Of a stretch of 64,000 nt of DNA, positions 3,201 through 52,556 are shown piece by piece (position 1 is the first letter of the stretch; each line of letters begins with the position of its first letter). The notes beneath the pieces were generated by a model. The model ran no database searches. It was not told the DNA's origin and was given only the letters and a program-made list of their open reading frames with translations. Source of the stretch: Branchiostoma floridae (Eukaryota > Chordata > Leptocardii > Amphioxiformes > Branchiostomatidae); contig NC_049989.1 in the NCBI RefSeq assembly GCF_000003815.2, positions 19,008,743 to 19,072,742 on the forward strand, read 5' to 3'. The position numbers and the translations under genes were made by a program.

Positions 3201-6200
3201 TGCTAGATTTTCTGACAGCTTCTCTGTTTTATTAATTAAAAAAATCCTGTATCCTCTGACAGGATCCACATCAGAAGACGAGAAACTTCTGCATGGGTTT
3301 TTAAAAGGAAAACGTTTTTCTCTCCCTCAATACGACCAGGAAGAAATATGATAATTCAGCTGGCCTGTTCTGAGGGAGTTCTTATACCTACAAAACTTGT
3401 TATAACAATGACAGAATTCTAGGCCCTATAGGTGCATCATTTTTTCAGGCCTTGCATTCAGTAGGTCATTAGCTTCATACTCGGCTGAATCATACCAAAG
3501 ACTTTAAAATGGTACATGCTGCTTTCTCTGCTTTGCACCCAGCATTTGGTAAAGAGTATGGCAGTTGAACAGACACACACTCCACCAACTGCACTCCACT
3601 ACCAATGGACTACCCCCAATGTAGTGATGTCACAAACTTGTGTGGTCCAAAGGCTTTGGAACGGAGATGGGGTTGTAATAGTTACCATGTATAGTGCTGG
3701 AGGACTTTAACTTCATTTCTGGGGGCTAGCCACAAACTCTGCAGAATGGAGTATCACAAAGCCTGGACAAGGAGACTTGGCATTTTTAAAAACTGATTTG
3801 TTCAATGCAGGGCCATTTCACCACTTCTAGGTAATGAACTAAGATGATGGATGGTGGAAATCATTAAGTACAGTGGAATCCGCTTTATTGTATCGCCTAT
3901 TTGTCTGGGCATTTTATCCAATTATCCGGCCTATTCTAGAGTCCGAAGTTGGCTATATGACCAGCTTTAGCGGCATTGGTTGGGGAGGGGTGTAGTTTTG
4001 AAAACCAATACGCAAACATAACACACACAGACACTCATAGAGGTTACCACTCTAACGATACGGAACTCCGTTTACAAAACTTTAATCATATGTTCCGATA
4101 CTGTGCGATTTCTGTGAGATGCTTGATCTTATAAAGAGTTCAAATCAGTGGCTAAATGCACATGTGGAAAAGTACGCTTGACTCGCACAGCCGTGCGTCG
4201 GCAATTTGGCGGCATACCAAAACAAAGACGAACATGGCTCCGCTCGTATGCCGGAGAATATGACGTTACTTTCATAATTTTAAGTTAAAACAACGGTATT
4301 GGAGAGTGATAAACTCTTGACCTTCTTGTCTACAACTTGTGTCCACAAATTACTCTGAAATTTCCGTCTTTCGCGGTGGAAGACGGAAAAAATTCACGTT
4401 CAAAACATTTAAAATGGCGGCGCGTGGGTTGAGATATCCCGCCATTCAATGCGCAAGATAGGTCATTGCGAAATCACTCCTGTTGCATTACGTGCGTTGT
4501 TGTAAATCTACGCAGCGCAGCCGAAATCAGCTCAATTAATGAGACAGTGGATATGAAAAAACACATTTTTGTAGGGTAAACCAAGTTTAGACGTTGTCTG
4601 AAGGGGAAATATGAACTCAAAAGCGTGTTGACGTTCCCATGACGTTCGCCCATCATACCTTGCGGCAACCTAACAAAATGGCGCCTAACTCCAAATGTTC
4701 GCACGCTAGCACAGCGCTATCGGCTAGATTTTCTGTGGAATGTAACTTTCTTACGGTCCTTTACATGGCTTTACACCTTTATACATACATTTACTAGTTA
4801 CCTTTGGACTCATTTTGTAAGTTTTAGGGCATATTTTCCCATTTTTAATTTGTGTGACCTGACGTAATTCTATCCAAAAACCCGAAGTTTGAGACCGTGG
4901 GTTATCCAATTCTGCGATGTTCTAAACAATAGAATGAATGGCAAATGTTTTGGGATTTCGTAATTCTATCCAATTACCCGAATTATCCAAAAAGGCGTAA
5001 TACGAATAATTGGAATCCACTGTACTAGGAGACAGTTGTTTGAAGGGCTTGAAGATTGTATACAGGAGAACAGTTGAATGTCATTGAGGGAGTTCCATAG
5101 CTTGGTAGTTTTAAAAGCCCACCTTTTTCGCAGCCGCCATCTTCCACTTCCTCTCCTGCGCGAAGTCGGTGGCGAGCCACTGCATCTCCTCCAGCAGGTA
5201 GTCCCAGTGTGCCTTGGGGCGGGGCGGCTCCTGCACCTTGGGCAGGCGGCGCTGGGACCACAGGCCCTCTTTTCTCAGCTCTGCTACCCTCTGTTGTACT
5301 GCAGCTTCCTAAGGAGACACATGAAACTATCATCAATACAACAATCTCTATTGTCACTTCAAGTCTACCCTCTGTTAAAGATCAGAAATGTAGCACTGGT
5401 CACTTTGAATTTCAGGGAGTTCAAACTTTTTGTTTTCGAATCATCAATAAAGCTAGTATGATATACTTCCCTGTGCTGATATACAAGGTAAAAAGTTAGC
5501 TGTATACAAGTGAGCCATGTCCTTTAAATAGAACATAATTTTATACTGTCTTTGGAACAACCGTTCAAAGAAACCTGAGGCGAGAAATCTGCATATACCT
5601 GGATGATTAGCTTAGTTTAAAAACAGGTTTTGTACAGATTTGACCCAATTTCAAAAGAAGTTTCTTCTCTGTCCTGAAAATGAAAACCCTGAGTAAAGGT
5701 AGTCAAAACAAGAATTTGTATGACTGACCTGTTTTGCCCTTTCGACGATCTCCTCCTGTGATCCGATGGTGGTGTCGTACACGTGTGAGATGGAATGCTG
5801 GTGGCGCGTCTGCAGCCTCTGACTGGACGTCGGGGAGAGCGGAGACTTGGTGCACTTGGCGACGACGGCGGCAGAGGTCGCTGACGTGGGCATCATCGTG
5901 GACACGCTCAGAGGTTTGGGTAAGTCCTTTGGTTGTTGTGGCGTTTGGAACGCTGAAAAGAGCACAGAAGCTGAGCCGAAGGGAGAAATGAAATTAAGTA
6001 AAAGAAGAACAAAAGCATTTTTCCAGATACTCTTTGTAATGTTAAGTATGCCCGTTACATGTTATTGGTGAACATATATTTGTAAAAACAAAAGTTCCCT
6101 TTTCACTGGTGATGTAGCAACCTTTTGAAATAACCAAATCTACTTGTTTGTGCTAGTTGGATTGGTCAATTTTGTTTCCAAACAGTGCGAGCAATTTATG

Positions 6201-17158: not shown

Positions 17159-20100
17159 ATGTCTGCAGACGACGCGAACCCCAGAGCCATAGCTGAGGAC
17201 ATCAAGAGGAAAACTAAGGAGGTTCTACAGAGCAGAGAACATGCCAACAACATCACAGATATTCTAGAGACGGCACAGGTTCGTTTGGTCGCTCCGATTC
17301 TGTGAAAAACGGTCGAACTTGTGATGCCCCCCTCCCCAAACTTCTAAATGTTTTTCTCCTGTCCTGATGGAAGTTTAGAATTTCTTTCTTTGCCGTGTGT
17401 AAGCCTGTTAGACCGACATGAAAGTGTTGTTAATACCGGCACAGTCTTACGTCTTGTAGCTGATCATTTTTCTAAGCCGCGATTGTGATTTCTAGGTACG
17501 TAATTAGATCCCACCCCGTAAAAATTCACCGGAGCACAGTGATAGACCCCGTCGGGCGGGGTACCTCCCAGTCCCGAGGAGTTTTCGCGAAGCTCACGAT
17601 GGGCTGGTACCAGGCAGGTTTGAGACCTGCTATAGAAGAATGGCATTTCAGAAACTTCAAGTACTGAGGAAAGAGACATGTAGATCTGATGATAGATGTA
17701 AAAATAGCATAGCATCATATATTTGACTATTTTGTAAACGATTGAAGTAGTGTAGCATAACTCAAGGCATAACTTAAATGTTAGTTCTGTCTCTCCCATT
17801 GGCACTGTAATTTTAACAGTGTAACAATTCTTTACAGAAACGTTTCATATAACTACTGCATTTTTAGTCCATATGGGCAAGAACGTGCAAATAAAAATCA
17901 ATATCATTCTATCCCCCAGTCTGATGAAGATGATAATAGAACTTTGTTTTGTCCCACTGTCACCGTAATGATACTTAATACTATAAAAACGTTTTATGTA
18001 ACTAAGTTGCATTTAGTCCATATGGGCAAGAATGTGCAAGAGGCCACATCTAGTGAAATGATAGATGTTAAACAAGGATAACAACAACAGCAAATAAAAA
18101 TCATCATCATTCTACCACCAGTCTGATGAAGATGTGGTGACGGCCGCCAGCCTCTCAGCTCTGCAGAAAATCTTCAGCACCCTGCTGGGGAGGAAGGAGG
18201 TGTACAGGGGCAAGCTGAAGGGGTCGGATGGTACGGAACAGATTGTTTGTTTGTTTGTTTCCATAATGTAAACAGTAAACATGTACATCCAGATCATACT
18301 GTATCACGTACAGGGGCAAGCTGAAGGGTGCGGATGGTATGGGACAGTTTTGTTTGTTTGTGTTTGTTTACTAAATAGTAAGCCACCTGTAGCCAGTTTA
18401 GGCATAACACTCCTGGTCCATGTGTGTGCTTGTAAATCTTGTTGCAATTTCTACTTGCAATTTCTACTGCAAATTTTAATGAAGTCCTTTACTCCACTTT
18501 TTGGCACTCCCAGATTAAGTTTAGATCAAAACAGAGCATATTCAGATTTGAGAAGTACAAGGTACATTGTCTAATATCAAATAGATTCAACTTCTCCTTG
18601 CTATTTAGTATTTTAAAATCAATGGGTGATGAGTGTATGAATATTTTCTTTCAATCTAGGTACAATGGTTATATATTGGTCACATATCAACAATGATAAG
18701 AATACTAATTGGGAATAAACAATGATTTCTGTCAAACATTGTTCCATCAGAAGAGCTCGCTGACCCAAAGAAGCAGTACAGCCGTTGGCTGGGACAGTGT
18801 TACATAGACGCACTGGAGATTCTGCTGCACAGACTGGCTCATCATGACAACTCAGACATTAAGGTATGGAACATACATGTGGTATTTTGAGCTCTGTCAT
18901 CACTACAGTGCCTAACAGCCTTCCTGATATATCATCATCATCATCATCCGGGCGTGCTGGTTGCACGGATGGCCATGACTCTCCTCCTGCATCCTTCCCT
19001 ATCCTCCATAGCCTTGGGCAGTTCTTCAGCCGAGCAGCCAGTATCTTCACAAATTTGACGTACATATTTGTGTGGTCTTCCTTTGCTTGTATGACCATGT
19101 TTGGGAGTCCACAGCAGAACGTATGTATAGCTAGCACAGTGTTCGTTTCCATTTGCATATAAAGCCACTCAATTGTGCAGTTGCTATACATGTATAGCAG
19201 GAGGCTAGTCTGGTATGTTTAACTTTTATTCCCTTTTTCTTAAGTGCTGAGTGCTGAGCAAAGAAGCTGTGTTTACCATGTTATAAAAGTCTTTGCTTTT
19301 GAACCTTTGACCTGTTGATGTAAATATGTGCAACATATTAGAATCAATACATCTCCAGTGGGTTAATTAGAAGACACAATTGCCACAAATTCTTGAACAG
19401 TACCCTTGACCATTGTTAATTCCTATCCCCAGGAGTTAGCCCTACTGGCCCTGTTGAAGTTGGTATCAGCTGAGGGGAAACACCCGACCTCCAAGTCTGG
19501 GGGAGACCAGTCCAACTTCCCTCTCAGGCTCTTCCAGGTTAGTGAACCTGAAGTCAAAATTTACATTGTTATGTGAAATCTAGAGTGAATTTCCAGTCCC
19601 TTATAAGTATGTTCATTTCTTTCAAAAAGTTAAATGTATGATACACTTGTTTTGTGTTAACTTTGTCCTATATGTCTTATTTGTATCATGTTTAGTTAAG
19701 CACTGATTTTGGCGGTTCCATCATATTTTAAGTCAATAAAAAATTAGAAAAAAGACTATATATAGTATAATGTGTATTATTGTTTTATGTGAGAAGGAGC
19801 TTGGTAATATCAAATACAACAGATAAAAATGTATCACATACAGTAACTAACTAATTGTCCTTGTTATAAGGAAAACATGTCTGTGATTTTCTCCCCCTAG
19901 CTCATCATTGACAAGCTCATGTCAAGCGAGGCAGACCAGAGCACTGTGATTGGTCGGTTCCAGGACTACTTTCAGTACGATGACATCAGACTGTTCACCT
20001 TCGTATCACTCCACAAGAACCTCAGGACTGTCACCAAGGAGTTCACACGGGTTAGTGCCTTGAATTCCAAACATAGTCACTTACTTCTGTCTTGCGTTAC

Positions 20101-23100
20101 AAGCTTTCTGCCATCAAGAAATCAGAACCATAGCATGTCAAGGTCAAAAGATGTAGTACCAAGGTCACATACCAAGGGGCCCAAAATTGACCTTGACCTT
20201 TGTCTTCCCAACACCTACCCACATACCAAATATCATTGTAATCCATTCAGAGGTTCTTGAGTTATGCTGACCACAAATATCCGGAAACGCAAACAGACAC
20301 ACAGACAGACAGACACACCCAAAACTGTATCTCCATTTTTCATGGGGATAATTGATATTGCAGCTTGAATCTTGAGTTTAGTCTAACATTACCCTTTTCT
20401 CCCTGCCAGCAACCCCCTGACACGTACCTGCATAACGTGCACACCCTGCTGACTCAGGTACAGATGCCGGGGGAGGGGGGTGATCTCAGCAATCTGTATG
20501 TGTCACCTACAGGTAGGGTGATATCTGTCAATCAATCAATCAATCAATCAATCAATTTTGTTTCTGAAGACTGGTATGTCATTGTCATCACCATTATACG
20601 ATACACACAATGGTCCTTTTCAGACAACTTATAGTGTTACATTTAACCAACAAGATGGGATTTGAAATTCTAAGTTTTTTTTCTAAAATTTTACCGAGGT
20701 ATACAATCAGATTTTCATTGCTTGTTTCTTAGTCTTAAGCCTGCAGCAGGGTAAAGTACCGAGTCAGTCAGTCACTTCATTATCATTTTATTTTCTTTCC
20801 TCAGACCCAGAAGCAGAGTGCAGACCCAAACAGCTAAAGGTCAGGGTTTTTATATCTAGAACAAGGTGGTTTCCTGTAATATATCTACTTGTAATGAGTT
20901 CTAATGGTTCAATACCCTTCTATTTCTGTTTATAGACACAATATGCTGAAGCTACATAATGATTGTAACTGCCGTTTTAGATTCAATAATCAAGTTGACA
21001 TTCTTGTTTTCTTTATATAGGAGCAAAGAAGAGCATTCACAAATGCCTGGTTGAGTTTCTTGAAAAACAAGGTAAGTTTAAAATGGCTTTCAAGATCTAG
21101 TATTGAGTCATCTGCTATAATTCACTGTTGACCTTGAGCCTTACTGTAAAGGTCACATACCGGTATCTGGTATTGCTGTTCCTCCCACAGCTGCTCAGTA
21201 GCCAGCAGCCTGTACAGACAGGTGCTGTTAACTCTGACCTTGATGTGACCAATATTGCTGTTCCTCCCACAGCTGCCCAGAAGCCTGTACAGACAGGTAC
21301 TGACATGACCTTGACTTTGCTGTCCAATGTCTAATATTGCTGTTCCTCCCACAGCTGCCCAGAAGCCTGTACAGACAGGTGCTGTTAACTCTGACCTTGA
21401 TGTGTCTAATATTGCTGTTCCTCCCACAGCTGCCTAGCAGCCTGTACAGACAGGTACTGCCATGACTTTGACTTTGCTGTCCCATGTCTAACATTGCTGT
21501 TCCTCCCACAGCTGCCCAGCAGCCTGTACGTACATGTATGTAGAGACAGTTGCTGTTAACTCTGACCTTGTGACAAATTGCTGTTCCTCCCACAGCTGCC
21601 CAGCAGCCTGTACAGACAGGTGCTGTTGACGTTAGACCAGGCTGTCATCCCCCTCATGTCCAGCCCCAAACTGCTCATCGACTTCCTGACTCAGTCATAC
21701 AACGTTGGTGAGTCTCAGCTTCACAAAACTGACAAACTACTTTCTGGGTTGACATTTTGGTTCTGAACTGAATTGAACTGAAGCTGTGAAAACTGTTGAC
21801 TGGTTGTATTCAGTTATTGATAAATTTGGTGGGCTCTTCATTTTTTTGAGGTTTGGCTACTCTTAACGACAGAAACCACAGTGACTGCATAATGTTTTAT
21901 TTTTACTGAATTAGGAACATTACATCAAACAACAGCATGCATAGAAATGTGTGGAATTGTTTGTTGAATTGTGTTTTGCCTTCTTCATTACAGGCGGAGC
22001 TATCAGTCTTCTGGCACTGAACGGACTGTTTACACTCATCTACAAGCACAACTTGTAAGTGGGAGTATAAGAGGGGGGTCATGAGTCACAGTAATACACC
22101 AGTTCTGTACACTGAAACTGGTACAGACAAACTGTGTTATTCTAAATCAACAGGCCCCATATACTTGGGGATCGGTATGGTTAGGTTAAATGTATGGGTT
22201 AAATGCCTCCCTGGCAAACAAAGAAAATGGACAAAATGGAAAACCCAATAGATAAGCCTAAAAGACAAAAAAACAGCTGCAGCCATACCTCTGCTTGGAA
22301 AGTACATGTAGTACAAAGGCAATAAATAAATAAATAAATACAAAGGCAGAGCTTAACCAAAGTGCAAAGAAAGCTAGCTGAGTTTACAGTGTTTGACATT
22401 TTTTCTGCTCAGCACTAATCTATGAGAAAGCATATAAGGGTAAAACATACACGTGACTACCAATGTCTGGTCCATATGGCATTAGTGCCACCTACCTGTT
22501 TTATCTCAAAATGCTTTGATGATGATGTTTTCATTCTATAGTGTGCCACAGCTTGTGCTACAGCTACAAGTCAGTTTTCAGCTCGAAATACTTTTTCTAC
22601 ACACCTGAACAGTCGCAGGTAACATTGGAAATTACCTGCACCAGACAAAATTTACCTGCACCAATTAGAATTTATAGGCAGTATTGATCATACTAAAATC
22701 TGTTCAGAAACCATTGCCATTATATCTTTAATTTATACTTCATCTGGAGGTAACAGTCAATACTGCTAGTAAAAGTCCACATTATGAAACATTATATATG
22801 TAAACCCAGATACATGGACCATTATGGTAGTGCAGGTTAGATGCAAGTAGACATTAGTAATACCTGCACCAACCTGCCCTGTATGTAGAGAATGCTGGTT
22901 TTTCACATGCCACTGATGATGTCCTGTTTGTTGTGTTTGTAACAGGGACTACCCAGACTTCTTCAGGAAGCTGTACGCCCTGTTTGAGCCGTCCGTGTTC
23001 CATGTGAAGTACACGGCGAGATTCTTCCACCTGGCTGATGTGTTCCTCACATCCACGTAAGGACACTTGTACTGTGTTTTGTATTCATTTGTGTTTTACT

Positions 23101-26002
23101 GGCTGTACAGGGCATGTGGTGGGCGTGTGTGCAGGGGGTGCTTTTTGAGTTCACGATGTTCCAGGACAAGTACTTGTCACAATTCTTCCATCTGGCTGTC
23201 AACATCTCTACCCCACATCCACTTAACAGGTCTTAAAGGGGGTGAAGTCTGTCATCTCCTCTATTTTATGATCTTTAGGATGTTTAACTTTCCTTTCCAG
23301 CCACATCCCAGCCTACCTGGCAGCAGCCTTCATCAAACGGTTATCCAGACTGTCCCTGTCGGCTCCCGTCTCATGTAAGTGTGGAAAAATGGTGCACTGG
23401 GAAGTGCCCTCCATTTCTATGGGTGTGTGTTCAACTACGGTACCATACTCTTTTTCAAATGCTGAGTACTGAACAGAGAATGCAGTTTGTATTTTTTTTT
23501 AATTCGTTGGTACGACTATGCTCCAGAGATTGAACACACAACCTGCATTACTCATTTGGCCATTACACCGGAAAGGATTGGTTAGAAATGGCAAAATGAT
23601 TAAAATGGTAAAATGGTAGGAAACTCTGAATACAATATTTTGCACTTGTGGAATGTATACTGGCTAAAGACCGATACATACCTAAAATGTGTCATACATG
23701 CATCTTATATTACTTATTTCAATTAGCTCTCCAAATGGTCCTGGTGTTCATCTCCAACCTCCTGAGGAGACACCCCAACTGTCAGGTCCTGGTGCACAGG
23801 AGCAGTGGGGAAGGTGGGTTTTCACTTTGATTTATTTTCTGCTAGTCCATCAGCTATCAAAAATAGTGATGTTGTCAAATACCGGATCACATTTCCATTC
23901 CGGGCCTTGGTCAAGCTGTTTGTGGGAATAACAATGAAACTGTATAATTTAGAAATACACACAAATCATGCTCATGACCACTTTTGTCAGCATTTTGTGC
24001 ATTTTGTTGCTGTCTATAATTATAATTGTCCAGGTACTAATTTGGAAATTGTTCAACAATGCTATGGTCTGATTTCTGTGCTTTTTCTTTGACTTCGAAT
24101 CAGACAGTGATTGGCTTCAATCTAAGGAAAATGACAGCTAAAGATCAGTCCAAGTTTTAGTCGTACAGCTTTCATTTGTCTTTGAATAAGATAATTGTAA
24201 CCCTTTTTTAGGACTTGGTTCCGACCCCTATGACGAGAGTGAGCCTGACCCAGCCAAGTGCAAGGCCATGGACAGTTCTCTCTGGGAGGTTAAGGTAAGA
24301 GGAGTTCATGTAACCCATTACAATATGTTACCTAGTATTGTAACTGTAGAGAACACAGCATACAGTTGTATTCTTCAAGGACTGTGCCTCTAAACCTGTT
24401 GTACTGAAATGTTCTAAAGAAACATTACAAGAAATTTCAAGGATCATTACAACTCCTTAATATAATGCAATATTCCTTTACTTGTCCTGTAAAACACAAA
24501 CAATTTACAATGTTTACAAGCTTATTACAACTTAGTCAACACTCAAGGCGTGACAAATTTTGTATTTGGCAGTGCTTAAGCAATATCTATCTTGAAATTT
24601 TCACGGCACAATACTTCTCTTTACCTCCTACCACAAAATGAAATAGTCTGGATAGGTAATGTACAGTGAGTAATTCTTCCTCTCCATGTCGCCCCCCTCC
24701 CACTCCAGTCTTTCCAGCACCATTTCCACCCTGACGTATCCCAGGCTGCATTGCTGCTAGGAAAGCCGCTGGCACCTCTGGAAGAAGACCTGTCTCAACA
24801 CCTGGAGCTGTGCACTAGTGAGGTGGGGCACGATTTTCTCTGCTTCTTTTGGTTAAGGCTACAGTAGGGGTGAGGGGGTGGGTACCGGTACAGTCCTGTT
24901 GGGTAAGCCGCTGGCACCTCTGGAGGCAGACCTGTCCAGGATCTGGAGCTGTGCACTAGTGAGGTGGGGCACGATTTTGTCTGGTTCTTTTGTTTTAGGC
25001 TACAGGCATTTGACTTGAATGCATAAAGATTAGGGGTGGGTACCGGTACAGAAAATTCAGGTCCAGGTACAGTCCTGGTCCATAGGATCAGGTCTAGGTC
25101 CGGACTTGAACCTGAACGTAATAATCTGTAGAAAGTTGTGAATGGGTGATATCAAAAGAATGGTCCAAAGGATTCTGTTTGGTGAAGTTAAGCTGACATC
25201 CACTGGCATTCTAAAATCCTATCTTCATGAAAAAAACACTTAGTCTATTTATAACTTTGACTGTAGACATGGGTACTGTAGATGTTGCTCTAGTTCTTTT
25301 CTTGGACCTGTAATCCCCCAAACACGTAAACACCTGTAAACAATTTGTTAATTTCTAATCGTTCAAACATCCAGTCCATTGATTTTTGTCATGTCCGGTT
25401 TGTCGGCAGATGTTCCAGACAGCATCCACAATTCATCATTCTTTAGTGACTGAGAATTAGATGAGATGACATGTAGTGCATACTATGAAAGTATGCACGG
25501 TTGCTTGCTGTATTTTGCATTACACAATGCTGCACACCAAGATGTCTAACCCACTGTTGTAGCCAGCCCCCATCCTTATGTCCTTTGACGGAATTTTACA
25601 GCTGGGGACGGAAAAAAAATTTGCTCATTCTATCCTCTGTGAGCAAAATCTAACCCTCAAAATGCAGGAAATAGCGTTTCAGAGGGTCTAGGCTTAAAAA
25701 TTTTCCTTGGGAGCATGCCCCCGGACCCCTTTAGGAACGCTGCGCCAAAGCCATTCAAAATTGAATGGACAAAAAATGATTTCTGGCTGGCTACAACCCT
25801 GGTCTAACCTTCCTCAACTTGCTCAAGAATAATCTCCCCTTTCTTCTTTACCCAGATGTTTGAGAAGGATCTCACCACAAAGTCTGACCAGGTCCCACTG
25901 GAGTTCCATGTACCAAAAGGACTGTTCGGGCCTAAAGACCAGTTCCACAACATCTGGGACACAGAGCCACCAACTAAGAAACATAAAACTGTCACTTCTT
26001 AA
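17159..26002 (+). CDS. NOC4L: Nucleolar complex protein 4 homologue (NOC4L), complete
   Basis: NOC4 pairs with NOP14 in the nucleolar small-subunit processome, needed for 40S assembly. Sixteen exons: 17159-17278, 18122-18230, 18751-18863, 19433-19537, 19901-20050, 20410-20512, 20805-20839, 21021-21071, 21596-21707, 21994-22054, 22946-23056, 23301-23374, 23727-23813, 24212-24294, 24709-24822, 25856-26002 (stop). All phases agree, giving 524 aa against about 516 in human. The CBF/Noc4 domain spans roughly exons 8-14: NAWLSFLKNK, LLALNGLFTLIYKHNLDYP, FRKLYALFEPSVFHVKY, ARFFHLADVFL, SNLLRRHPNCQVLVHR, SDPYDESEPDP, then SSLWEVKSFQHHFHPDVSQAA and MFEKDL. The N-terminus MSADDANPRAIAED was chosen as the first ATG in the exon. 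Exons 2, 9 and 15 have partial tandem copies in the flanking introns. Identification is very secure; the 35-nt exon 7 is the least certain exon. Confidence 0.95.
17836..18121 (+). repeat. Tandem duplication covering the NOC4L exon 2 acceptor
   Basis: The sequence from about 17836 to 17945 recurs at about 17985-18135: both contain catatgggcaagaa, aataaaaatcat/atcatt, and an acceptor followed by tctgatgaagatg. The downstream copy is the true exon 2 start (18122). The upstream copy has an intact cccccag acceptor at about 17920 but loses the exon after some 13 bases. The downstream copy also holds about 67 extra bases. Confidence 0.75.
18203..18345 (+). repeat. Duplication of the NOC4L exon 2 donor end
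   Basis: The last 28 bases of exon 2 plus the donor and start of intron 2 (from tacaggggcaagctgaag at 18203) recur 106 bases downstream at 18309, including ggatggta and a gtttgtttg tract. The copy has one frame-shifting change just before its donor-like ggatg/gtatgg. Confidence 0.75.
18944..19191 (-). mobile_element. 3' end of a non-LTR retrotransposon (LINE) in NOC4L intron 3
   Basis: The minus-strand translation contains LLWTPKHGHTSKGRPHKYV, EDTGCSAEELPKAMEDRE and VMAIRATSTPG, the usual C-terminal tail after reverse transcriptase in many LINE elements (GRP...EDTG...L..AM.DR...W...V...RA.STR). It ends in a (atg/cat)n tract at 18930-18948, as expected of a LINE 3' tail. Only the last 75 or so codons remain. 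It is antisense to NOC4L. Confidence 0.65.
20120..20355 (+). repeat. Probable interspersed repeat in NOC4L intron 5
   Basis: Contains ccaaggtcac, ttgaccttgacctttgtc, tatcattgtaatccattcag, a cagacacacagacagacagac tract and tctccatttttcatggggat. I judge it a dispersed repeat from its style (a recurring sentence of this kind is common in invertebrate introns). It carries several TGACCTT nuclear-receptor half-sites. Copy number cannot be checked here. Confidence 0.45.
20526..20558 (+). repeat. (TCAA)n microsatellite
   Basis: About seven units of tcaa in NOC4L intron 6, 14 bases after the exon 6 donor. Confidence 0.85.
21165..21595 (+). repeat. Tandem array of NOC4L exon 9 acceptor copies
   Basis: Five copies of attgctgttcctcccacag plus about 25-43 bases of exon 9 precede the true exon 9 (starts 21596). 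Acceptor AGs end at 21190, 21272, 21354, 21429 and 21511, the true one at 21595: spacing 82, 82, 75, 82, 84. Tails alternate between gtgctgttaactctgacc (like the exon) and gtactgacatgacc, giving a 157-bp higher-order unit. In copies 2-4 the acceptor is followed by exactly 24 bases and then a GT, so each could act as an in-frame 24-nt exon (LPRSLYRQ or LPSSLYRQ). Copy 5 is diverged. Confidence 0.9.
24878..25051 (+). repeat. Duplication of the NOC4L exon 15 donor end
   Basis: The second half of exon 15 with its donor and intron start (aagccgctggcacctctgga through ctagtgag/gtggggcacgatttt) recurs 141 bases downstream (about 24904-24990). The unit ends in gggtgggtaccggtacag at 24878-24893 and again near 25035-25051. 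The copy has no AG acceptor directly in front. Confidence 0.85.
25552..25801. mobile_element. hAT-type MITE in NOC4L intron 15
   Basis: An 8-bp direct repeat gtctaacc flanks the element exactly (25544-25551 and 25802-25809), diagnostic of hAT-superfamily insertion. Terminal inverted repeats are cactgttgtagccagcc on the left and the complement of ggctggctacaaccctg on the right. It is 250 bp without coding capacity. Its interior (ggagcatgcccccggaccc and flanks) is related in inverse orientation to 62870-62950. The right end is 54 bases before exon 16. Confidence 0.8.
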
Positions 26003-27672: not shown

Positions 27673-28017
27673 CTACATTAGGCTGTACTTTCATGAAAGC
27701 TACTCCCATTTCACATATTCAGGACCCTCGCCAGACCAAGGTCGGCACTGTGTTTGGAGTGGCCTGGAATCCACCCCGGAGGTTCTGGCACAAGTTGGCC
27801 GATCTGATTGCATCGAAGTACGATATTATTAAGAATTTTCGACTATGATGACAAATAGGCAGCCCGCCCGGTCATCCCTCTGCCACAGATGTCCTTAAAC
27901 TCCGGATCCTAACCATGGTCTGGAGAAGGCCGGGAGGCCATGGTTGGCCATGTATGACATGGGTAACTCACTAGATGTACATGGCACACAAATATAAATC
28001 AGGCGGCGGGGATTTTG

Positions 28018-28885
28018 GGGACTCCGTTCAGCACTAAGGACGTCACCCCCGGGTTGACAGTTGTTCGGACGGCACCTTTAACATACGCAGACATTTAAGA
28101 CAACATCCGCCAGGCGCTACTTGACCACAGAAACCTCTTTTACATTGTAGATCTAAGATCTCTAATAACTTATTCCACCTGTCCTTTCGGGACTCATTCA
28201 AAGTAGCATGAAAATAGCGGATGAAAGGCACTCCGGATGCTGTCGGAAATGACTGACTCTGTCTTTGGGACCCCTTTTCAGTACCAAGGACGTCACCTGT
28301 GGGTTGGCGATTGGTCGGACGGCCCTTTGGGATACGCAGGTTTTTCAGACAACATCCGCCAGGGGCTACTTGAATACAGAAAACTCTTTAACATTGTAGA
28401 TCCAAGACCTATAATAAGCCTATCCCACCTGTCCTTCGGGAATAATTCACAGTAGTGGATGAAAGGCGCTCCGGATGCTGTCGGAAATGACTAACTCCGT
28501 TTTAGCACCAAGGACGTCACCTTTAACACACGCAGATGTTTCAGACAACATCCACCAGGGACTACTTGGCTGCACTTGGCTGCAAAAAACTCTATTCAGA
28601 CCGGGCCTCTTTGGTCAAGGAGGTAATTTTATTCATGTAAGAAAATAGCAGCAATATAGCAAGAAAATCTGAAAAATACATTGTTAGAACCAAAATTAGT
28701 GACTTACGTGAAAAATACCTCAACAACCGGTTGACATGGAAACCCGAGAATATTGGAAATTTTCCAAACTTTGTAAAAGTGTTGTCATCTACCATCTCCA
28801 CTAACCTATTCCACCTGTCCTCCTGGAATCATTCACAGTAAGGGATGAAAAGTGCGTAATATGCTGTCGGAAATGACTGGCCCAC
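28018..28885. repeat. Large tandem repeat, three copies of about 225-250 bp
   Basis: The anchor aaggacgtcacc occurs at 28036, 28286 and 28510, each followed by cagacaacatcc(g/a)ccagg, ccacctgtcc and gctgtcggaaatgact. The third copy is split: unrelated sequence of about 200 bp (28590-28795) interrupts it before ccacctgtcc resumes near 28810. On the minus strand copy 1 has an open frame with ESRKDRWNKLLEILDLQ, but stops and gaps break it in the other copies, so I do not call a gene. Confidence 0.75.
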
Positions 28886-37859: not shown

Positions 37860-40800
37860 ATGAGTCTACTACAGCTGTACCCCGCCCTGTGTGTGTCCGA
37901 TGTTGTGTGGGTGGTTGCCCTGTTTGCATTGCTGTACGGGCTGGTGTATGCAGGGGAGAGGCGCGACCTGGTCCTGCCGCCCGGCCCGACACCTTTGCCG
38001 ATTATCGGGAACCTGCTGAACATGGTGGGGGCCGATCCGCATATCAGGATGACTCAGATGGCAAAGAAATTTGGAGACGTCTATCAGGTAAATAAAACAA
38101 TGGTTAACTTTGCCATTATGTTTGGTATCATATATAGTTATGTCCACTGTTTACGATTTACGAAAACAACAGTTATCGGGAACCTTCTGAACATGCTGGG
38201 GGCTGCATGACCCTCACATCAGGATGACTCATATGGCAAAGAAGTTTGGAGACTTCTATCAGGTATGTAAAACATTACCAAGGTTGTATTTGTCATTGTG
38301 TAGGGTATCGTATACTCATAGCAATATCAACTGTTAACGATTTACGAAAACAACAGCCATCGGGAATTCGAACCTACTGAACACGGTGGGTGGGTGGTTG
38401 GTGTTTTTTTGGGGTGATTCGCACATTAGGATGGCGAAGGTCCATGTCATGACGTCAATCATGTAAATATAGCATGCACTTTATCATATCGTTGCAGTTG
38501 CCATTATGTACGATATCCTACGTGTATGTGAAGTTAGCTTTTAAACCACTTGTTTGCTTCATTCTATGATGTCTTCAAAGATCGTCAAAGCAGTCTTCGT
38601 GCTTCATTCATATAATAATAAAAACAATATAGTAGTAAAACATTGCCAAATATAGTTGTAATACTACATGGGTTGAGAAACTGTCACGGGGCAATGAAAA
38701 TGTATCCTTGCGCTGAATGTCTCTTCACAAATAACGAGAAACAAGCATGCAGCCAGACAAATCCAAGGTGCAGGGGTATCATTGCTTTGGGCTGCAATCG
38801 TTTGAAGAGCATTGGCGACATTTACCTAGTTGAAGTCCCAATGCAAAACTGACAGCTATCATAACAAGTATGCATGCGTGATCTGTTGATAGATTATCTC
38901 AAATATTTGCCTTTATCTTCAGGTGTGGATCGGTATGGAGAAAGTAATCGTCATCAACGACATTGACCTTGCTAAGGAGGCCCTGGTGAAGAACGGTGAC
39001 GACTTTGCGGGGCGAGCCCACCTCCCCACCACCGACCTGCTGTCCAACAGCGGCATGGGCATCGCCTTCGCAGACTACGGCAGAGGCTGGAGGATCCACA
39101 AGAAACTCACGCACAACTCGCTCAAGGTGAAATGAGCAACGAGTCTACGAAATAGATATCTCGGATCACAGGAGCGTTATCAGTTGATACTTCAAGCCAA
39201 TAACATGCCATGTATATAAATTTTATCACGTGGCATTCAAGCACTTACAGAAGTTGAGACAATTGCCTAGCACCGGTTTGTACATACATCGGTATGTCCA
39301 CCAGGTCCAATGACCAATAGGACCTCCAGACTGCGCAACTCATTCCTACACTATACAATCAGACTGTACAACAAATCAATGACTGGTGCCTAAGTGTTTT
39401 TAATTGTCTATGTACTGTGTATGTCATGCGTACTGTGCATGTTGTCTAGTCGTTGTAAGAATTTACACTGAGTCACATTGTAAGATCAGCGGCATTCAGA
39501 GGTGCTTCTGCTAAGAATAAATCTCTGTAAGGTTGATTTTAATGAATAAAGAAAGAGAAAGAAAGAATAACGGAAAAAAAGGATCGGACATTCATATTCA
39601 TTTTTTATGCTCTATCCGATCGCGAGATCCATCCAAAATCACTACCAGTTCATTTTTACTGTTTACTGTTTACTATTAAAAGAGATAATGCTTTGCTGCA
39701 ATATCCAGTTCTTTGATTAATCTTTGTTCAGCGATCTAAAAAAAAGATTGTCACCTTTGTCCTCTTATCTAACCACCATTGCCTTCACGTTCTCCTGTTA
39801 TCTTTCTGACAAACTCCGTCACTTCTCGCTTCTTAGATGTTTGGGAACGGCATGCAGCAGCTTGAGAGCCGGATCTCAGAGGAAGCCGACTGGCTGTGCT
39901 CCCACACGTAAAAACAGTTGTAACCTCAACTTATTTAACGGCTATTGTTGCAACGCACGTTCTACTGTTAACTTTCTGACAAATTTCTATACCTTCTCGC
40001 TGCGTAGATGTTTGGGAACGGCATGCAGCAGCTTGAGAGCCGGATCTCGGAGGAAGCCGACTGGCTGTGCTCCCACATCGCCGCCTCCGCCGGCCGACCT
40101 CTCGACCCGTACCTGGGGCTGAACGTCGTCATCGGGAACATCATCAGTAGTCTCTGCCTGGGGAAGCGGTACCACCCGGAGGACCCGGAGTTCAGAACCA
40201 TCGTGCGCTACAACGAAGGTCTCGTAGATACGGTCGGCAAGGACGGCCTCATTGACGTGTTCCCCCTGTTGGCGGTAAGTATCTCATCCATACGGTATTG
40301 CTCTTTGCCAATGATTCTAATACCAGCCAGGCTGCCACAGTTGTAGGCTCATTGGTCGCTACGCAAATGCTATAGCTATCAGTGGTAATGCTCTTTTCTT
40401 GATTACTAGAAATTTAAATTACAATGCCTATACGTGTTTAAGTCCTAATAGTATGTGCTTATTTTCTTCTAGAAACTTCCTAACGCCACCGTGAGGAAAA
40501 TGAAGGAGTGCCTTGAGCTGAGGAATAAAGTGCTGTCTAAGAATATCGAGGAACATCGGGTAGGTATTTTCTTTTCTTTTTGCATTCTTGAAAGAATCAT
40601 TTCTCGCCAATGCCCCATGTTATGATAAGCATGTTCTGGTTTATAACGTTAAAGCCTGTAGGAAGCTTCAAGACACTATTGAAAAACTGTTGGTTACAAT
40701 ACGGTCACGTGGCCACAGGTGCAGTGGATCATTGTTATTGAAGAAGGCCGGCATGGTGGTCGAAACATCACTGACTTGCTACCTTGTCCTGAAAAGGTTA

Positions 40801-43145
40801 TGTACGTGACTGGTAACATTTATCATATGGTTAACCATCTCATTGTAGACATGTAAGCGTAGAACCAGTTCAGGCTTTAAAACACAAGTGACAGGTGTTC
40901 TAATTGTTGACGTCATTATACCGTTACCAGGCGACCTACCAGGACGGGAAGATCCGTGATTTGATTGACACGCTGCTGAAGGCCCAGGCCGAGGCGGTGA
41001 TGGCGAGCGGACACAGGGCCCTCCGCCATCTGAGCGACCAGCACATCCTCATCACTGTCAACGACGTGTTCGGGGGAGGGATGGAGACGGCCACCACCAC
41101 CCTGAGGTGGATCCTGCTGTTCCTTGTGCACTACCCCGAGGTAAGGAGAACTTAAGCACCAAAGCAACGCGTTAGATATGAATGGATGCTGAACTTTATT
41201 GATGAACAATCGCATCAGGTACTATGAATGGCAAGCAATAACAACTACTAGTTATCTAGACAGTAGTACTACGAGGCTACATGCATAACAACAAAATATT
41301 ATCGACAACAGTACAATCATGTCTCGTAAGAGCAAAGACATATTTGCAACCCATTGACGAGTGAAAAGGCAGGAGGCAACACTTAGTATACATGCAACAG
41401 CTGATGGATTTTCAATATCCATGGTAATATCTGACGAGTTGTCTTTGTGGGTTCCATTTGGTGTACCTAGCGACTCTTGCTGTTGATGTTGTCCATCCCC
41501 TATACCTAATCCTTGAAATGTAGTCTTCTCCTAGTAACAATTTCGCACTGACAGCTTTCTCAGAGTTCCGTCGAGCAAATCAGTGCATCCCGCTGTGTTT
41601 CGCCACAAGACGGTTTTCCGGGTATGCAATACAAACAAACAAACAAACAAACAAACAGCCACACCTCTGCTTTCTCCCAGGTTCAGGACAGGATCCAGGC
41701 GGAGATGCAGCAGGTCCTGTGCGCGAACGACCCGGTCCGTCTGTCTGACAGGGAGCGGCTGCCGTACCTGGAGGCCACCATCAGAGAGGTGCTCCGGATG
41801 AGACCTGTGGCGCCTCTCGCCATTCCGCATGTCACTATCAGGGATACGTCGTAAGTAGATCGAGTCTAGGTCATTCGACCTCTTAAAACGCTTTGCTCTA
41901 GCTTATCGAATGAAGGGGCACTTTAAATGATTTGTGCCCCAAAGCCAATGCTATTTGATCAATTTGATCATGTCTGATGTTAATTACCAGGCATTATAAT
42001 CCAACGTTCCTGCAACAATATTCGAGTCTTTTTATCTGGATGTGAGACTAAGATTTAAATGTTGCGGGCACGGTTTAACCACTTGCTTAATCAACTTCAA
42101 AGTCTATTATGAAAAAGTTAATGACAATGTGACAACATTAGCTCTTACGGACAAGAGAACTATACATGCCAAGACGCGAGACGTATAGTATCAACAGTAT
42201 GATGTGATAAGATGTCTAGAAATATAATTGTTTCTTGTTCTTTAAACAACTATCCATATTGTGACCTTTTCTCCAGGGTTGGGGACTTCGACGTTCCCCA
42301 GGGAACCCGTGTGATGTTCAACCTGTGGGCCATTCACCATGACGAGCGCCACTGGACAGATCCGGCTACATTCAACCCTGGTGAGAAACATGGTTTTTAT
42401 GGATTTGACTAATGGTAAATTAGCAGACAACATGATGATTGTCTCTTTGTGCTCGTGATCGTTGATTGTCGCAATTTCAAATGATACTAGTATTTATTAC
42501 ATATATGTGTGACATTTCATGAGCAATTGACGATACATAATCTGCAACAAACTAGTGAAACCCTTGTAACAAAACCCCTTCAGACAAGTATAAAATGTCC
42601 TGATGCAATAACACTGTATGTGGAATACTTGATCTTTTCAACTTCAGTTAACCGCTCCCTAATACTCCTCAAATTGTTGCGAATTGACAACAAGAAGCCG
42701 CCGCATATGATACAATTCATACATAGAAAAGTAGCTTCCGTCATTCAATTGGCACATAAAAAGAGTTTTCATCATAAGGTGTTCAAATCATTTACCTGGT
42801 TGCTATTTATGGCAATGACAAAATGGCATTCATGATGAAGCTTTTATGTTGACGTATTCTCCTCTTGTTCTAATTTTGCTATCTCTAGACCGATTCCTCG
42901 ACGCGAAGACGGGCCAGCTCCTTCGCGGCGGCAGCTTCCTGCCGTTCCTGGCCGGCTGTCGCGGCTGTCTGGGGGAGTCCATGGCCAAGGCCGAGCTGTT
43001 CCTCTTCACAGCACGGATCCTCAGGGACTTCCGGCTGGAGCTGCCTGACGGGGTTTCCCCACCCAGTCTGCAGGGGCGGTACGGGGTCGTCATGGCTCCG
43101 GACAGATACGACATCTGCTTCAGACCCAGAGAAGAACAACTATAA
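37860..43145 (+). CDS. CYP17-like cytochrome P450, gene 1 (508 aa)
   Basis: Microsomal clan-2 P450; CYP17 enzymes hydroxylate C21 steroids at C17 and cleave the side chain. The substrate here is unknown. Eight exons: 37860-38087, 38923-39126, 40008-40274, 40473-40559, 40931-41140, 41681-41850, 42277-42380, 42889-43145; phases agree. Start: ATG at 37860. Features: N-terminal membrane anchor (about residues 10-30), hinge [14 protein letters not shown]-helix [11 protein letters not shown]-helix GGGMET (310-315), K-helix EVLR (368-371), [21 protein letters not shown], haem loop [10 protein letters not shown] with Cys450. The RPVAPL.IPH and NLWAIHHDE segments are the closest to CYP17. In the haem loop, Leu replaces the usual Gly/Ser after Phe. 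The 3' ends of exon 1 and 5' end of exon 3 have duplicate copies in introns. A (caaa)n tract precedes exon 6. Confidence 0.93.
38173..38440 (+). repeat. Two intronic copies of the CYP17-like 1 exon 1 end
   Basis: The segment from ttatcgggaacctgctgaac (exon 1, 38002) to the intron part ending aaaacaacag recurs starting at 38173 and, more decayed, at 38357 (spacing 171 and 184). Copy 2 keeps tttggagacttctatcag and a strong donor (CAG/GTATGT, about 38268) but has an inserted base that breaks the frame. Copy 3 has lost its donor. Confidence 0.85.
39770..40078 (+). repeat. Tandem duplication of the CYP17-like 1 exon 3 acceptor end
   Basis: The true exon 3 (from 40008) is preceded 169 bases upstream by a copy starting at 39839 after cttcttag. 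The first 69 bases match with one change, through gctgtgctcccaca, then the copy stops at cac/gtaaaa, a potential donor. Upstream intron sequence (ttctgacaaa...cttctcgct) is copied too. Confidence 0.85.
41633..41657 (+). repeat. (CAAA)n microsatellite
   Basis: About six units of caaa, 23 bases before the exon 6 acceptor of CYP17-like 1, so it sits where the branch point would be expected. Confidence 0.85.
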
Positions 43146-46204: not shown

Positions 46205-46703
46205 CCGATTGACTTGAAATTTGGCACAAAGGTAGAGTAAGCTAATACCCTTAGGTGTTTTTTTCATTTTTTTCATATCTGCCTTAAAAATGATTTTATT
46301 GAGGTTTTTGTCAATTTTTATGTATATTTTGGGCTCCTGTACCCTGGTATTACAGCCGAATGACATGAAATTTGGTACAGAGGTGCCCTGATCATATGCC
46401 CACCCAGATATCAGAACAGTTGTGGCATACGGTACAACAAAATGCTTAATTTTGCGATTTTTGGCCATTTTTTTACAAAAAAAGCACATTTTTGCCTCCT
46501 GTACCCTCGTTTTACAACCGAATGACCTGAAATTTGGTATAAACGTGCCCTTCAATTATGTGCACATGAATTCAATAACAGTTTTTCAATACAGTACAAC
46601 ATAATGCTTAATATTGCGATTTTATGGCCATTTTTCGACAAAAATTGGACATTTTTGGCTCCTATTCCCTCGTTTTACAACCAAATGACCCGAACTTTGG
46701 TAA
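46205..46703 (+). repeat. Degenerate tandem repeat, about 150-163 bp period
   Basis: The anchor ccgaatgacctgaaatttgg recurs with changes at 46205, 46356, 46518 and 46681. Between anchors, tgcttaattttgcgattttt and ggctcctgtaccctcg recur. The first unit is the most diverged. Confidence 0.8.
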
Positions 46704-47293
46704 AAGTGTGCTCTAGATATTTATCCAAATGACTCATGTGTAATTTTTGGCATGGAACACTTTAAAATGATATAATTGGGAATTTTTGGGGTCATTTTCC
46801 AATGGCCAAAGGGGTCAACGACCTCAAGACCTATTGTTGCATGAGGGAGATGGCTGAAATATGCTGTATTTGCTCTCAAGCAAATGTCGGCCTTTCTAGT
46901 GTTTCTACTACATTCAGAAATGACAATGTCCTCACGACATTGGTCGGAAATTATGACGAAAAGACCTTCTTTACAACAGGTATCACCATCTCTTATTAAA
47001 GAAAAGATGAACTGCTCGAGGATTGTCTATGCTCACAGACTGTCTGGATGTAACCATGACGTTTGCAAAACATCTGTTCAACCTCCCTTTTTCAGACAAG
47101 CCTACAACTATATACAACAAACAGGGATTTTATTACTACAGACAAAATACGATGACGTGCAGGACTGTAATCCAACCTTCGAGCCCTTCTCAGACATGTC
47201 TACGGCCGTACAAGAAACCGAAATGTCTACAATATTGTAACAAATGTCTTCAACCTAGACGATCACTCAGGAAGACTTTCAGACACAACTACC

Positions 47294-47414: not shown

Positions 47415-50400
47415 ATGCTGCTGGTACAGTCAGTGCTATCTAACATTCAGTTTGCAGAGTACGCGCTGCTTGGAGCTGTAGTTTTCTTGCTATGTTGGCT
47501 GATGTTTGCTGAGAAGAAGCGGACACAGTTCGCACCCCCCGGCCCTCGGCCCCTGCCGCTCATCGGGAATCTGCTGGACATGGTCGGCGCCGACCCCCAC
47601 ATACGCCTGACGGAGATGGCGGAGACATTCGGTACCGTGTTTCAGGTAGGCTTTATGAAGTACTGTCAGCCATTTAAGAATTACCGAAGACTAATTATGA
47701 TCTACGTAAAATACAAGTCCTGGATTCTATCATTGAAAAAACCCTCATAGATATATCTCAGAAAATATAAGATAAATGTCAAGTGATATGGCGTTATACA
47801 AAGTCATATTTCTTACATTTCATCTCAAATCCAACTGTATTCAACCAACATGAAAAATATTCGAAGTTTTATATGTATACAATTATTATCGCAAAGTTTG
47901 TTTGACGCTAGCTTATTATGTGCATTGGCTATATCCTCCAACATACATGAGCTCTACAATGAACGCAATGCGTTTTCCGTAGGTGAGGTTTGGACGGGAA
48001 CCGGTTGTCGTCATCAACGACATTGACCTTGCTAAGGAGGCCCTGGTGAAGAACGGTGACGACTTTGCGGGGCGAGCCCACCTCCCCACCACCGACCTGC
48101 TGTCCAACAGTGGCATGGGCATCGCCTTCGCAGACTACGGCAGGGGCTGGAGGATCCACAAGAAACTCACGCACAACTCGCTCAAGGTAAGTTTTAGGCT
48201 CCTCCCGAATAATGTTCTATTGGAAGATGCAATACAAAGACAGTTAAGTCACAGAGCTAGGGTGCGCATTTTGCAGTTCACCAAGTTAGACCCAACGCTT
48301 GGCTTGCTGATTCCTCTGGTAAATAAGTTCGCCTATTGATCTTTTTGACATTCACTTCAAAAGACACGTGTAGAGACTTTGTCTACTTCTTGTTTGCCTC
48401 TGTACTAGCTGTATTCTCAAGTGACATCCCCATCCCTATGTGTATGATAAAGAAGAGTTGGCAATGGGCCAATAGCATCTCAGATGTTGATTTTGAAAAA
48501 AAAATGACGTCGCGGTACAACCATAGCATGACAGTGACAGTTGATGGTGGTAACTTATTAATTATATCTAATAGTACGTACTCTGAGATATCCTATCACG
48601 CTTGAGATACACTACATCATTGATAACGAGTCCTAGAGTGATTGCAGCCCCTTTCCTTACATCTTCAGATGTTTGGGCAAGGAATGTTCCAACTGGAAGA
48701 TAAGATAACCACGGAGGCCGACTGGTTATGCGGGTATCTCAAAACCTCCTCGGGAGCCCCCCTCGACCCTTACCTCCCCCTGAACACGGTCGTGGGAAAC
48801 GTCATCAGCTCCATCTGCTTCGGGAAGCGGTTTGAACCGGAGGATGACGAGTTCAGGACGATCATCGGGTACAACGAGGGGCTGGTGGACACGGTGGGCA
48901 AGGACGCCCTCATCGACGTGTTTCCGTGGCTGGCGGTGAGTTGTGGTTTCACGGCGCCCTCTTACGGCTTAAAGCAAGTTGCAACTTGTCCCACTAGTGT
49001 ATTCGCATTAGTCACTAGTCGAAAGACAGGTTTACGCAAAATATAATTTGAAACAAATTCTGTTTGGAAAGCGATACAACCCGTACAAGTGTCCAAACAG
49101 AACCTTCAGTGCATCACCCAATAGAAAAATGTTCAACTTTTTTTAACAGGGCAGTCGTCTTTGGCATTCCACTTTCCTTCAGCAAAATAACTGACAACAA
49201 ATTACTAGATTATAGTTGCTGTATATATGGGACAGTTGCGCGTTTTATTGATTAATCATTAATGCCTTTCCTTATGTAACTACAGAAACTGCCCAACTCC
49301 ACGGTGACGAAGATGAAGCAATGCCTGAAGACCAGAGACAATGTCCTCAACAATAACATCGAAGAGCACAGGGTAAATATTTTCTTCAAACTCATAATCA
49401 TTTTTTTTACCATTGAAGTTTGAAAACTGAAATCTGATCGGTAAAACTTTTGCGGACACATACAGTGAACATTGAACTACAGATTATGCGAGCTTCTACA
49501 GATAAAAATTATGCATACAACCATTTCATACAATTCGTCGTTTATGTGACTTTGTGTCGTTCTCTCTTTTGTGTTTTTGTTGGTGATGTTCGGTTATGGG
49601 ATTACTGGATATCGTATAACTATATCATAAATATAGGTAGCTAAGTATTTTATTGATCATAGCATTTTTCATTGTTTGTATGGTTTCTTTAGGGTTCCTT
49701 TAAGGACGGTCAGCCCCGTGACCTGGTGGACGCCCTCCTGAAGGCCCAGGCCGAGGCGGCTGCTGAGGGAGGACGGAAGGCGCAGCGGTACCTGAGCGAT
49801 GAACACATCCTCACTACTGTTAACGACGTGTTCGGCGGGGGGATGGAGACGTCTACCACCACCCTGCGATGGATCCTGGCGTTCCTACTGCATCATCCGG
49901 AGGTATGTATTTCGTGTAGAAAACTTTTTATATCGCACAAACAGTAAGCCGCCGTACTGCATCATCCGGGGGTATGTATTTCTTTTGTTAAAGTTTTTGT
50001 ATCGTAGAAACAGTAAGGCGCCTCAATTCGTAACACATCAGTTCTGTACGCAGTGTTGTACATTATGCAGAACACAAACAACATAAGGAATTAGTCTATT
50101 TGAGCTGTCACACATCAAGTTGAAACCCTGCTTTTATCGATAAGTGTGTTATAGATTCTTCAGTGGACTCACGTTGTAGCTAGACTCAGTGTTTCATCGC
50201 AATCATATCATAATCAATTTTGCATTAAAGTAATTAACAGACGGCACTGAAGTTCCTACAAGTATATGTCAGTTACCATGGATTGGCAATATTGACTTAC
50301 GAGATCGCAATTTCCTTCCAACGTCGACAGTCAATATCGTATAATATTGTAGCCATTTATTTCGTTTTATCCTTTTTTTCGAAAAGTACATGAAATAATA

Positions 50401-52019: not shown

Positions 52020-52361
52020 CCGGAAATGGGTCAAAGGTGCCTGGAAGTCTGTAACGTCTCCCGTCTCGTTTGTACTGGAGTTGTCAATATCGTGTTAACC
52101 GAAACAGAGGAGCTTGTCGCTCATTTTCTCCGTTAAGCAACAAAGACACATACAACACAATTTATGTGTAGTTATACAAGAAACGTTTAACGAATTTCGC
52201 CAGTAGTATTCATATTCAATTTTACTGTTAGCTGTAGGTTATGCCAACGTCAGAATGAGGAACAAACAAAAGAGTGCATGTCGTAATTCTGCTATACATA
52301 TTCATTATCCATAGTTCAAGTTTGCTGGGACAACGAATGCATTACTTATTTATTTACTTTA

Positions 52362-52556
52362 TAATCATCTTAAATAGTTATGATTATCTTTAGCAACAAC
52401 GATGAAAGTTCATCTAGGTAATGTGTCTCCCAATATAAAAGTTACTCAAGGAGTAGGAAATTAATTTGCTCATTTATATTCTAAATAATCATCTTGATAG
52501 TTATGATTATCTTTAAAGCCACTACGATGAACACTAGACATTCAGGTAGTGAAATG
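52362..52556 (+). repeat. Two copies of a 124-bp-spaced repeat in the CYP17-like 2 3' flank
   Basis: taatcatctt(a/g)...atagttatgattatcttta followed by acgatgaa and aggtagtg/aggtaatg occurs near 52362 and again near 52486. A second, shorter tandem repeat with ttattacatacatctat and gttgctgcatcc lies at about 53050-53140. Confidence 0.7.

Follow-up and report, generated by a model that had tools for sequence, protein, structure and literature searches.

Decoy 3′ splice sites before exon 9 of the lancelet NOC4L gene: a further case of the amphioxus mirages

The NOC4L gene and the repeats in its eighth intron

The window, that is, the whole stretch of 64,000 nt analysed here, contains the NOC4L gene, which was reconstructed as an exon model on the plus strand. 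Its product matched the Nucleolar complex protein 4 homolog (PDB 7mq8_SU, E 2.2e-106, residues 145–502), a structure that we take to be human, and Noc4 (PDB 6rxt_US, E 1.7e-72, residues 7–501), and it contains a Pfam CBF (CBF/Mak21) domain (E 1.2e-49). The introns of the model measure 181–1033 nt and the internal exons 35–150 nt, a size range that suits exon definition. Two tandem P450 genes (37860–43142 and 47418–51876), each of eight exons in the same layout, are also present in the window; the peptides of exons 3 and 2 of the first gene, P450-A, matched Pfam p450 at E 1.1e-8 and 2e-5, respectively. A mir-4899 precursor, belonging to what is presumably a Branchiostoma microRNA family, was matched by Rfam on the minus strand at 3307–3392 (110 bits).

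Exon 9 of the model starts at 21596, directly after an AG ending at 21595; the gene, the exon number and the acceptor named in the original prediction are all the same in the model. The exon 9 acceptor is present in six copies between 21172 and 21630, five decoys and the authentic site (a slash marks the end of the exon or exon-like part):

17159–26002, plus strand: NOC4L gene, 16 coding exons encoding 524 amino acids in one open frame, introns all GT–AG (exon model)
21072–21595, plus strand: intron 8, 524 nt; exon 8 ends at 21071 (exon model)
21172–21221, plus strand: decoy copy 1, AG ending at 21190; exon part with a 7-nt insert; CAG/GT at +31, out of frame
21254–21296, plus strand: decoy copy 2, AG ending at 21272; 24-nt exon part LPRSLYRQ; donor CAG/gtactg, 3.5 bits
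21336–21378, plus strand: decoy copy 3, AG ending at 21354; 24-nt exon part LPRSLYRQ; donor CAG/gtgctg, 1.9 bits
21411–21453, plus strand: decoy copy 4, AG ending at 21429; 24-nt exon part LPSSLYRQ; donor CAG/gtactg, 3.5 bits
21493–21535, plus strand: decoy copy 5, AG ending at 21511; CTAAC at −20; donor CAT/gtatgt, 7.2 bits
21577–21630, plus strand: authentic copy, acceptor AG ending at 21595, start of exon 9
21596–21707, plus strand: exon 9, 112 nt, donor TTG/gtgagt (exon model)

The 54-nt blocks that start at the six listed positions are spaced at 82, 82, 75, 82 and 84 bp, within the predicted 75–84 bp, and the AG coordinates agree with the prediction in all six cases. Each unit consists of some 30–40 intron bases with a polypyrimidine tract and AG, followed by 24 to about 43 exon-like bases. 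The last 19 intron nucleotides, including the AG, were identical in all six copies and absent from the rest of the window, which bears out the predicted conservation of the tract and AG. Over the 54 nt, the copies were 63–96% identical to copy 3. Copies 2–4 and the authentic copy have the first 24 exon bases in common apart from a few substitutions, and in type A tails a weaker resemblance to exon 9 continues, by eye, to about base 43. Two tail types alternate along the array, as had been predicted, and a 157-bp dimer is present at 21202–21358 and again at 21359–21515 (nine differences, 94% identity). A GT follows exactly 24 nt after the AG in four of the five decoys, namely copies 2, 3 and 4 (CAG/GT) and copy 5 (CAT/GTATGT), where it lies inside a 14-nt insert and the 24-nt part (21512–21535) reads LPSSLYVH; the original prediction had counted three. 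The 24-nt parts are in phase 0 with exons 8 and 9, as it had proposed. Exon 9 itself also has CAG/GT at +24.

In 15 runs with first-order Markov resamples of the gene, no local pair reached 36 bits, compared with up to 368 bits for pairs within the array. When the genome (513 Mb) was searched, the array was found at one place only. A mobile element carrying the array was rejected, given this single place and the lack of a match in the plasmid collection. An open frame of 138 amino acids runs across the array on the minus strand (21231–21644). It had no Pfam match, antisense coding was rejected, and the frame is probably a by-product of the repeats.

Minisatellite-like tandem duplications of exon–intron boundaries are described in amphioxus under the name of mirages, from Adh3, globin, TnC and PGBD5 (PMC3087553, PMC3902484). 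The NOC4L array is likewise a tandem, minisatellite-like repeat, with six copies at 75–84 bp, and its unit spans an exon–intron boundary of the gene (21595/21596). The intact authentic boundary forms the outer edge of the array; the decoys are intronic (21172–21535), with AG in five of five and GT at +24 in four. That the genome is that of a cephalochordate can be inferred from two globin loci in the same genome, which have the published B. floridae anatomy and unit lengths; the mir-4899 match was considered alongside them. The array is a newly found case within this described class. Its unit would straddle the boundary by happenstance, and growth probably proceeded by tandem duplication first and then by duplication of the 82+75-bp dimer. 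The first decoy AG lies 119 nt from the donor of intron 8; that distance was probably the ancestral length of the intron, which the array would have brought to its present 524 nt.

False copies generated from haplotypes or misjoined reads would produce a similar picture, and one globin mirage was apparently assembled aberrantly in the genome draft, according to PMC3087553. However, the NOC4L copies differ from one another, as their 63–96% identity to copy 3 illustrates, they occur at a single place in 513 Mb, and seven junctions in the window have the same anatomy. We regard an assembly artefact as extremely improbable.

Splice signals and the choice of acceptor

Splice sites were scored with a matrix derived from 29 local introns. 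On this matrix, the decoy acceptors scored 9.6–10.6 bits and the authentic exon 9 acceptor 9.6 bits, but the matrix discriminates poorly, with authentic acceptors spanning −4.0 to 16.7 bits. Eleven of the 377 intronic AGs of NOC4L reached the authentic score minus half a bit: the five decoys and six unrelated AGs. Because these six score equally, the acceptor score alone says little. A branch-point-like CTAAT or CTAAC lies at −20 in copies 3–5 and is lacking from the authentic copy, whose branch-point-like motifs are TTAAC at −36 and CTGAC at −30. Since copies 3–5 have the closer motif and their acceptor scores are alike, none of the intronic signals measured gives the authentic site an advantage. 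Under a nearest-AG rule, the first decoy, at 119 nt, would be preferred, which argues against silence of the decoys.

On the downstream side, the +24 donors of copies 2–4 scored 1.9–3.5 bits, less than any of the 29 authentic local donors (4.8–12.4 bits), while the 7.2 bits of the copy 5 donor fall within the authentic range. The exon 9 donor, 112 nt downstream of its acceptor, scored 6.8 bits on the matrix that includes it. Behind each of the five inner acceptors lie 24–31 nt and then, in most cases, a weak donor. Only the authentic acceptor leads into a complete exon whose donor, 112 nt on, could be used. For this reason, exon 8 is most likely spliced to this outermost acceptor, with pairing across the exon presumably selecting the outer copy. 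Judged on these signals, the decoys are most likely silent, passed over in favour of the outer copy by exon definition. Our best explanation, to which we assign a probability of roughly 0.88, regards the array as one of the amphioxus mirages, with a minisatellite lying over the boundary and decoys that are most likely bypassed in this way.

Some decoys, chiefly copy 5, might instead be used as in-frame 24-nt microexons in part of the transcripts, giving length variants of NOC4L. The 24-nt distance from AG to GT in four of five decoys, in phase 0 with both neighbouring exons, would suit such use, and the alternative, an extension of exon 9 from a decoy without the 24-nt donor, meets a stop in all five. 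Copy 5, with an acceptor of 9.6 bits and a donor within the authentic range, is the most credible candidate microexon, judging by its splice-site scores, and was outside the three copies singled out originally. Against this stand the donors of copies 2–4, weaker than any authentic local donor, and the length of the putative exons, 24 nt being short for exon definition.

Published mirages are also reported to leave the mRNA unchanged. Many copies in the globin mirages carry AG or GT, and Adh3 data together with globin RT-PCR suggest that regular splicing is undisturbed (PMC3087553); the same paper cites Canestro et al. (2002) for undisturbed splicing at the Adh3 mirages of B. floridae and B. 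lanceolatum. PMC3902484 suggests that the PGBD5 splice-site repeats, of 60 and 108 bp, cause no aberrant mRNA, and says the same of the TnC splice-site duplications. We consider microexon use unlikely, and regulated microexons were not favoured as the main reading, the donors of copies 2–4 being weak. The original prediction had left two outcomes, decoys ignored or length variants; the undisturbed published mirages, the weak donors of copies 2–4 and the stops favour the first and disfavour the second. Recursive (ratchet) splicing was rejected: every copy reads AG/CTG, so that splicing to it would not re-create a donor there.

The identity of the 19-nt core in all six copies could hint at constraint. 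It is conceivable that the decoys were co-opted, for example as sinks for splicing factors or as enhancers for exon 9, and the complete identity of the core while the flanks diverge would fit this. Recent duplication or gene conversion explains the identity equally well, however, and selection on the decoys was rejected: none of the nine dimer differences falls in the 38 core positions of 157, for which the chance, calculated by hand, is about 0.08, not significant within the dimer. We give co-option almost no credence.

Mirages have also been proposed as a source of new introns, and the array could be an intron-gain precursor, in which an inner copy becomes an exon and the intervening repeats a new intron, as a model and its figure legend in PMC3087553 propose for amphioxus globin genes. 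The CAG/GT at +24 of exon 9 fits the notion of a proto-splice site in PMC3443670. Yet the NOC4L model contains no new intron between AGGT sites, and exon 9 is single, ordinary and in frame. We hold this proposal to be very unlikely as an account of the array; it describes an evolutionary outcome that is compatible with a bypassed mirage and is not an alternative to it.

Boundary duplications elsewhere in the window and genome

Self-comparison of the window by self-BLAST, with a minimum score of 50 bits and separations of 20–600 bp, gave ten clusters, seven of them within NOC4L and the two P450 gene models. Besides the array, duplications were found at the following junctions:

17838–18134, plus strand: NOC4L exon 2 acceptor (18121/18122), repeated upstream at 17887–17932; mirage-like
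18202–18381, plus strand: NOC4L exon 2 donor (18230), repeated downstream at 18308–18381; mirage-like
22996–23226, plus strand: NOC4L exon 11 end (donor 23056) with 4 intron bases, copy at 23157–23226
24754–25005, plus strand: NOC4L exon 15 donor (24822), repeated at 24896–25005, 88% identity; mirage-like
38002–38390, plus strand: P450-A exon 1 donor (38087), first of the two tandem P450 genes; mirage-like
39786–40077, plus strand: P450-A exon 3 acceptor (40008), 91% identity; mirage-like
49886–50022, plus strand: P450-B exon 5 donor (49902), second P450 gene, 69-bp unit; mirage-like

The first of these clusters includes a pair, 17838–17890 and 17987–18039, that is itself intronic. The exon 11 pair (22996–23060 and 23157–23226), which is not one of the seven clusters, scored 37 bits at 71% identity and has lost the GT in the copy; it is possibly a degenerate mirage. 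Each of the three P450 duplications was found in one paralogue only, at different junctions, which suggests a fast turnover of such duplications. A lower-scoring intronic pair in NOC4L is a 19-bp repeat at 24875 and 25033, and TRF found four wholly intronic arrays of period 4–20 bp in the three genes (18442–18472, 20528–20556, 22624–22674 and 41631–41657). Local tandem duplications are also present outside the three gene models, at 28015–28878, 46326–46714 and 52342–52531. The original prediction was sound on gene, exon, frame and geometry, but its treatment of the array as singular did not stand, since the array falls into a class already described and is not the only one of its kind in the window.

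All seven clusters within the gene models span a splice site, where random placement over the 18.6-kb gene span would give 1.6, a count that holds for units of at least 45 bp, self-BLAST clusters missing short periods. With random placement, the probability of all seven lying at junctions was 1.3e-5, or 1.0e-4 without the array given at the outset. For units not wholly exonic, the corresponding values were 2.9e-5 and 2.0e-4. This enrichment weakens if boundary copies stay recognisable for longer, their authentic copy being held by selection. Weighting recognisability twofold, threefold and fourfold raised P to 7.7e-4, 3.9e-3 and 0.01 for all seven, and to 3.1e-3, 0.011 and 0.026 without the given array. 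The strength of the junction enrichment depends on the time for which copies at boundaries remain recognisable.

When counted per probe, 7 of the 58 splice sites of the three genes carried a duplication versus 23 of 210 intronic probes (P 0.48), with low-complexity intronic probes dropped and the intronic copies of the mirages taken as controls. Outside the clusters, 2 of 182 intronic probes matched; the exon 11 copy and the 19-bp repeat each account for one.

We extended the comparison to 100 kb on each side (L002–L021), in a 264-kb piece with 12,333 bases of N, where some clusters were read by eye. Boundary duplications were recognised by eye at a UBE2-like acceptor, an EP400-like donor and two coronin-like acceptors. 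The names of these flank genes, and of an APPBP2-like one, are presumptive. Three of seven flank peptides matched Pfam: WD40_4 (2e-15) exceeded the curated cut-off, and UQ_con (1.4e-5) and TPR_12 (4.4e-6) fell short of it. Among the four without a Pfam match were the EP400-like and the first coronin-like peptides. The APPBP2-like exon, source of the TPR_12 match, is repeated, but its copies share no single clean intron–exon boundary, and it was rejected as a boundary duplication. The right flank also has repeated exons that, by eye, resemble EGF domains.

Across the 200 kb of flanks, tandem duplications were not enriched in splice-like motifs. Acceptors of at least 8 bits were present in 7 of 32 clusters against 8.9 expected (P 0.84), and the other four threshold settings of the permutation test also gave P of at least 0.7, after 10 of 51 clusters, the NOC4L array among them, had been dropped for low complexity or length. 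The flank result is evidence against a general junction bias. Within the window, the same motif proxy at 8 bits scored acceptors in one of nine clusters and donors in two, though six of the nine span a known junction. Because so few score, we judged the proxy too weak and underpowered. On balance, we put forward only tentatively, and as somewhat improbable, the idea that short tandem duplications in lancelets preferentially hit splice junctions, through a process linked to the junction itself or to transcription and splicing, which would make mirages a pervasive form of variation.

A globin search of the same genome gave nine matches, and four of the nine loci had local tandem duplications of at least 50 bits. 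In locus L030 (1034–1504), four acceptor copies, spaced at 154, 158 and 158 bp, run into a globin exon, so that three decoys accompany the last copy. In locus L026 (1724–1881), a donor is duplicated at 157 bp. Further local tandem duplications lie near globin exons in L025 (1076–1390) and L029 (1751–1947). In BflGb6, repeats of 150–160 bp comprise the intron end and the start of exon 2, with haplotypes of six and three units, and in BflGb9 a repeat of 157 bp covers the 3′ boundary of exon 2 (PMC3087553). The unit lengths of L030 and L026 agree with these, which provides a positive control for the duplication method and, in our view, identifies the genome as that of Branchiostoma, most likely B. 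floridae.

Significance and relation to known systems

The new point is the density of mirages in three genes; no wider mirage survey was recognised among the titles listed by literature searches. The NOC4L array amounts to a natural competition experiment, in which six acceptors with near-identical intronic cores, differing mostly downstream, share one intron, with matched donor duplications in neighbouring introns. It could reveal to what extent the exon context prevails over the strength and nearness of an acceptor. If the genome-wide density matched that in the three genes, an extrapolation, lancelets would hold thousands of such tests, and they would offer a live test of whether boundary duplications yield introns. 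Were the junction bias true, mirages would be a standing supply of tandem splice sites for splice-site choice and intron gain.

Tandem splice sites have been placed in competition before. Reed and Maniatis, in 1986, reportedly found that duplicated β-globin splice sites compete in vitro and that exon context decides; their constructs were engineered, whereas the NOC4L array is a natural series. Intron gain by tandem genomic duplication also places extra AG and GT signals within a gene, but in the system of PMC3443670, the duplicated segments are exonic and contain AGGT, and a new intron results, whereas in NOC4L the duplication covers a boundary that already existed, and the model shows no new intron.

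The closer likenesses are within amphioxus. PGBD5 and TnC share with the array tandem repeats over splice sites, in different genes and with different unit lengths (PMC3902484). The Adh3 mirages are likewise minisatellites over exon–intron boundaries, with units of 10–72 bp and reported somatic instability (PMC3087553). In BflGb6, the intron end and exon start are repeated, and in BflGb9 the exon end and intron start, in both cases as units of 150–160 bp, compared with 75–84 bp in NOC4L (PMC3087553). Unlike the globin mirages, the NOC4L array has two alternating tail types and a duplicated dimer, but like them it consists of tandem boundary copies that keep their AG or GT (PMC3087553).
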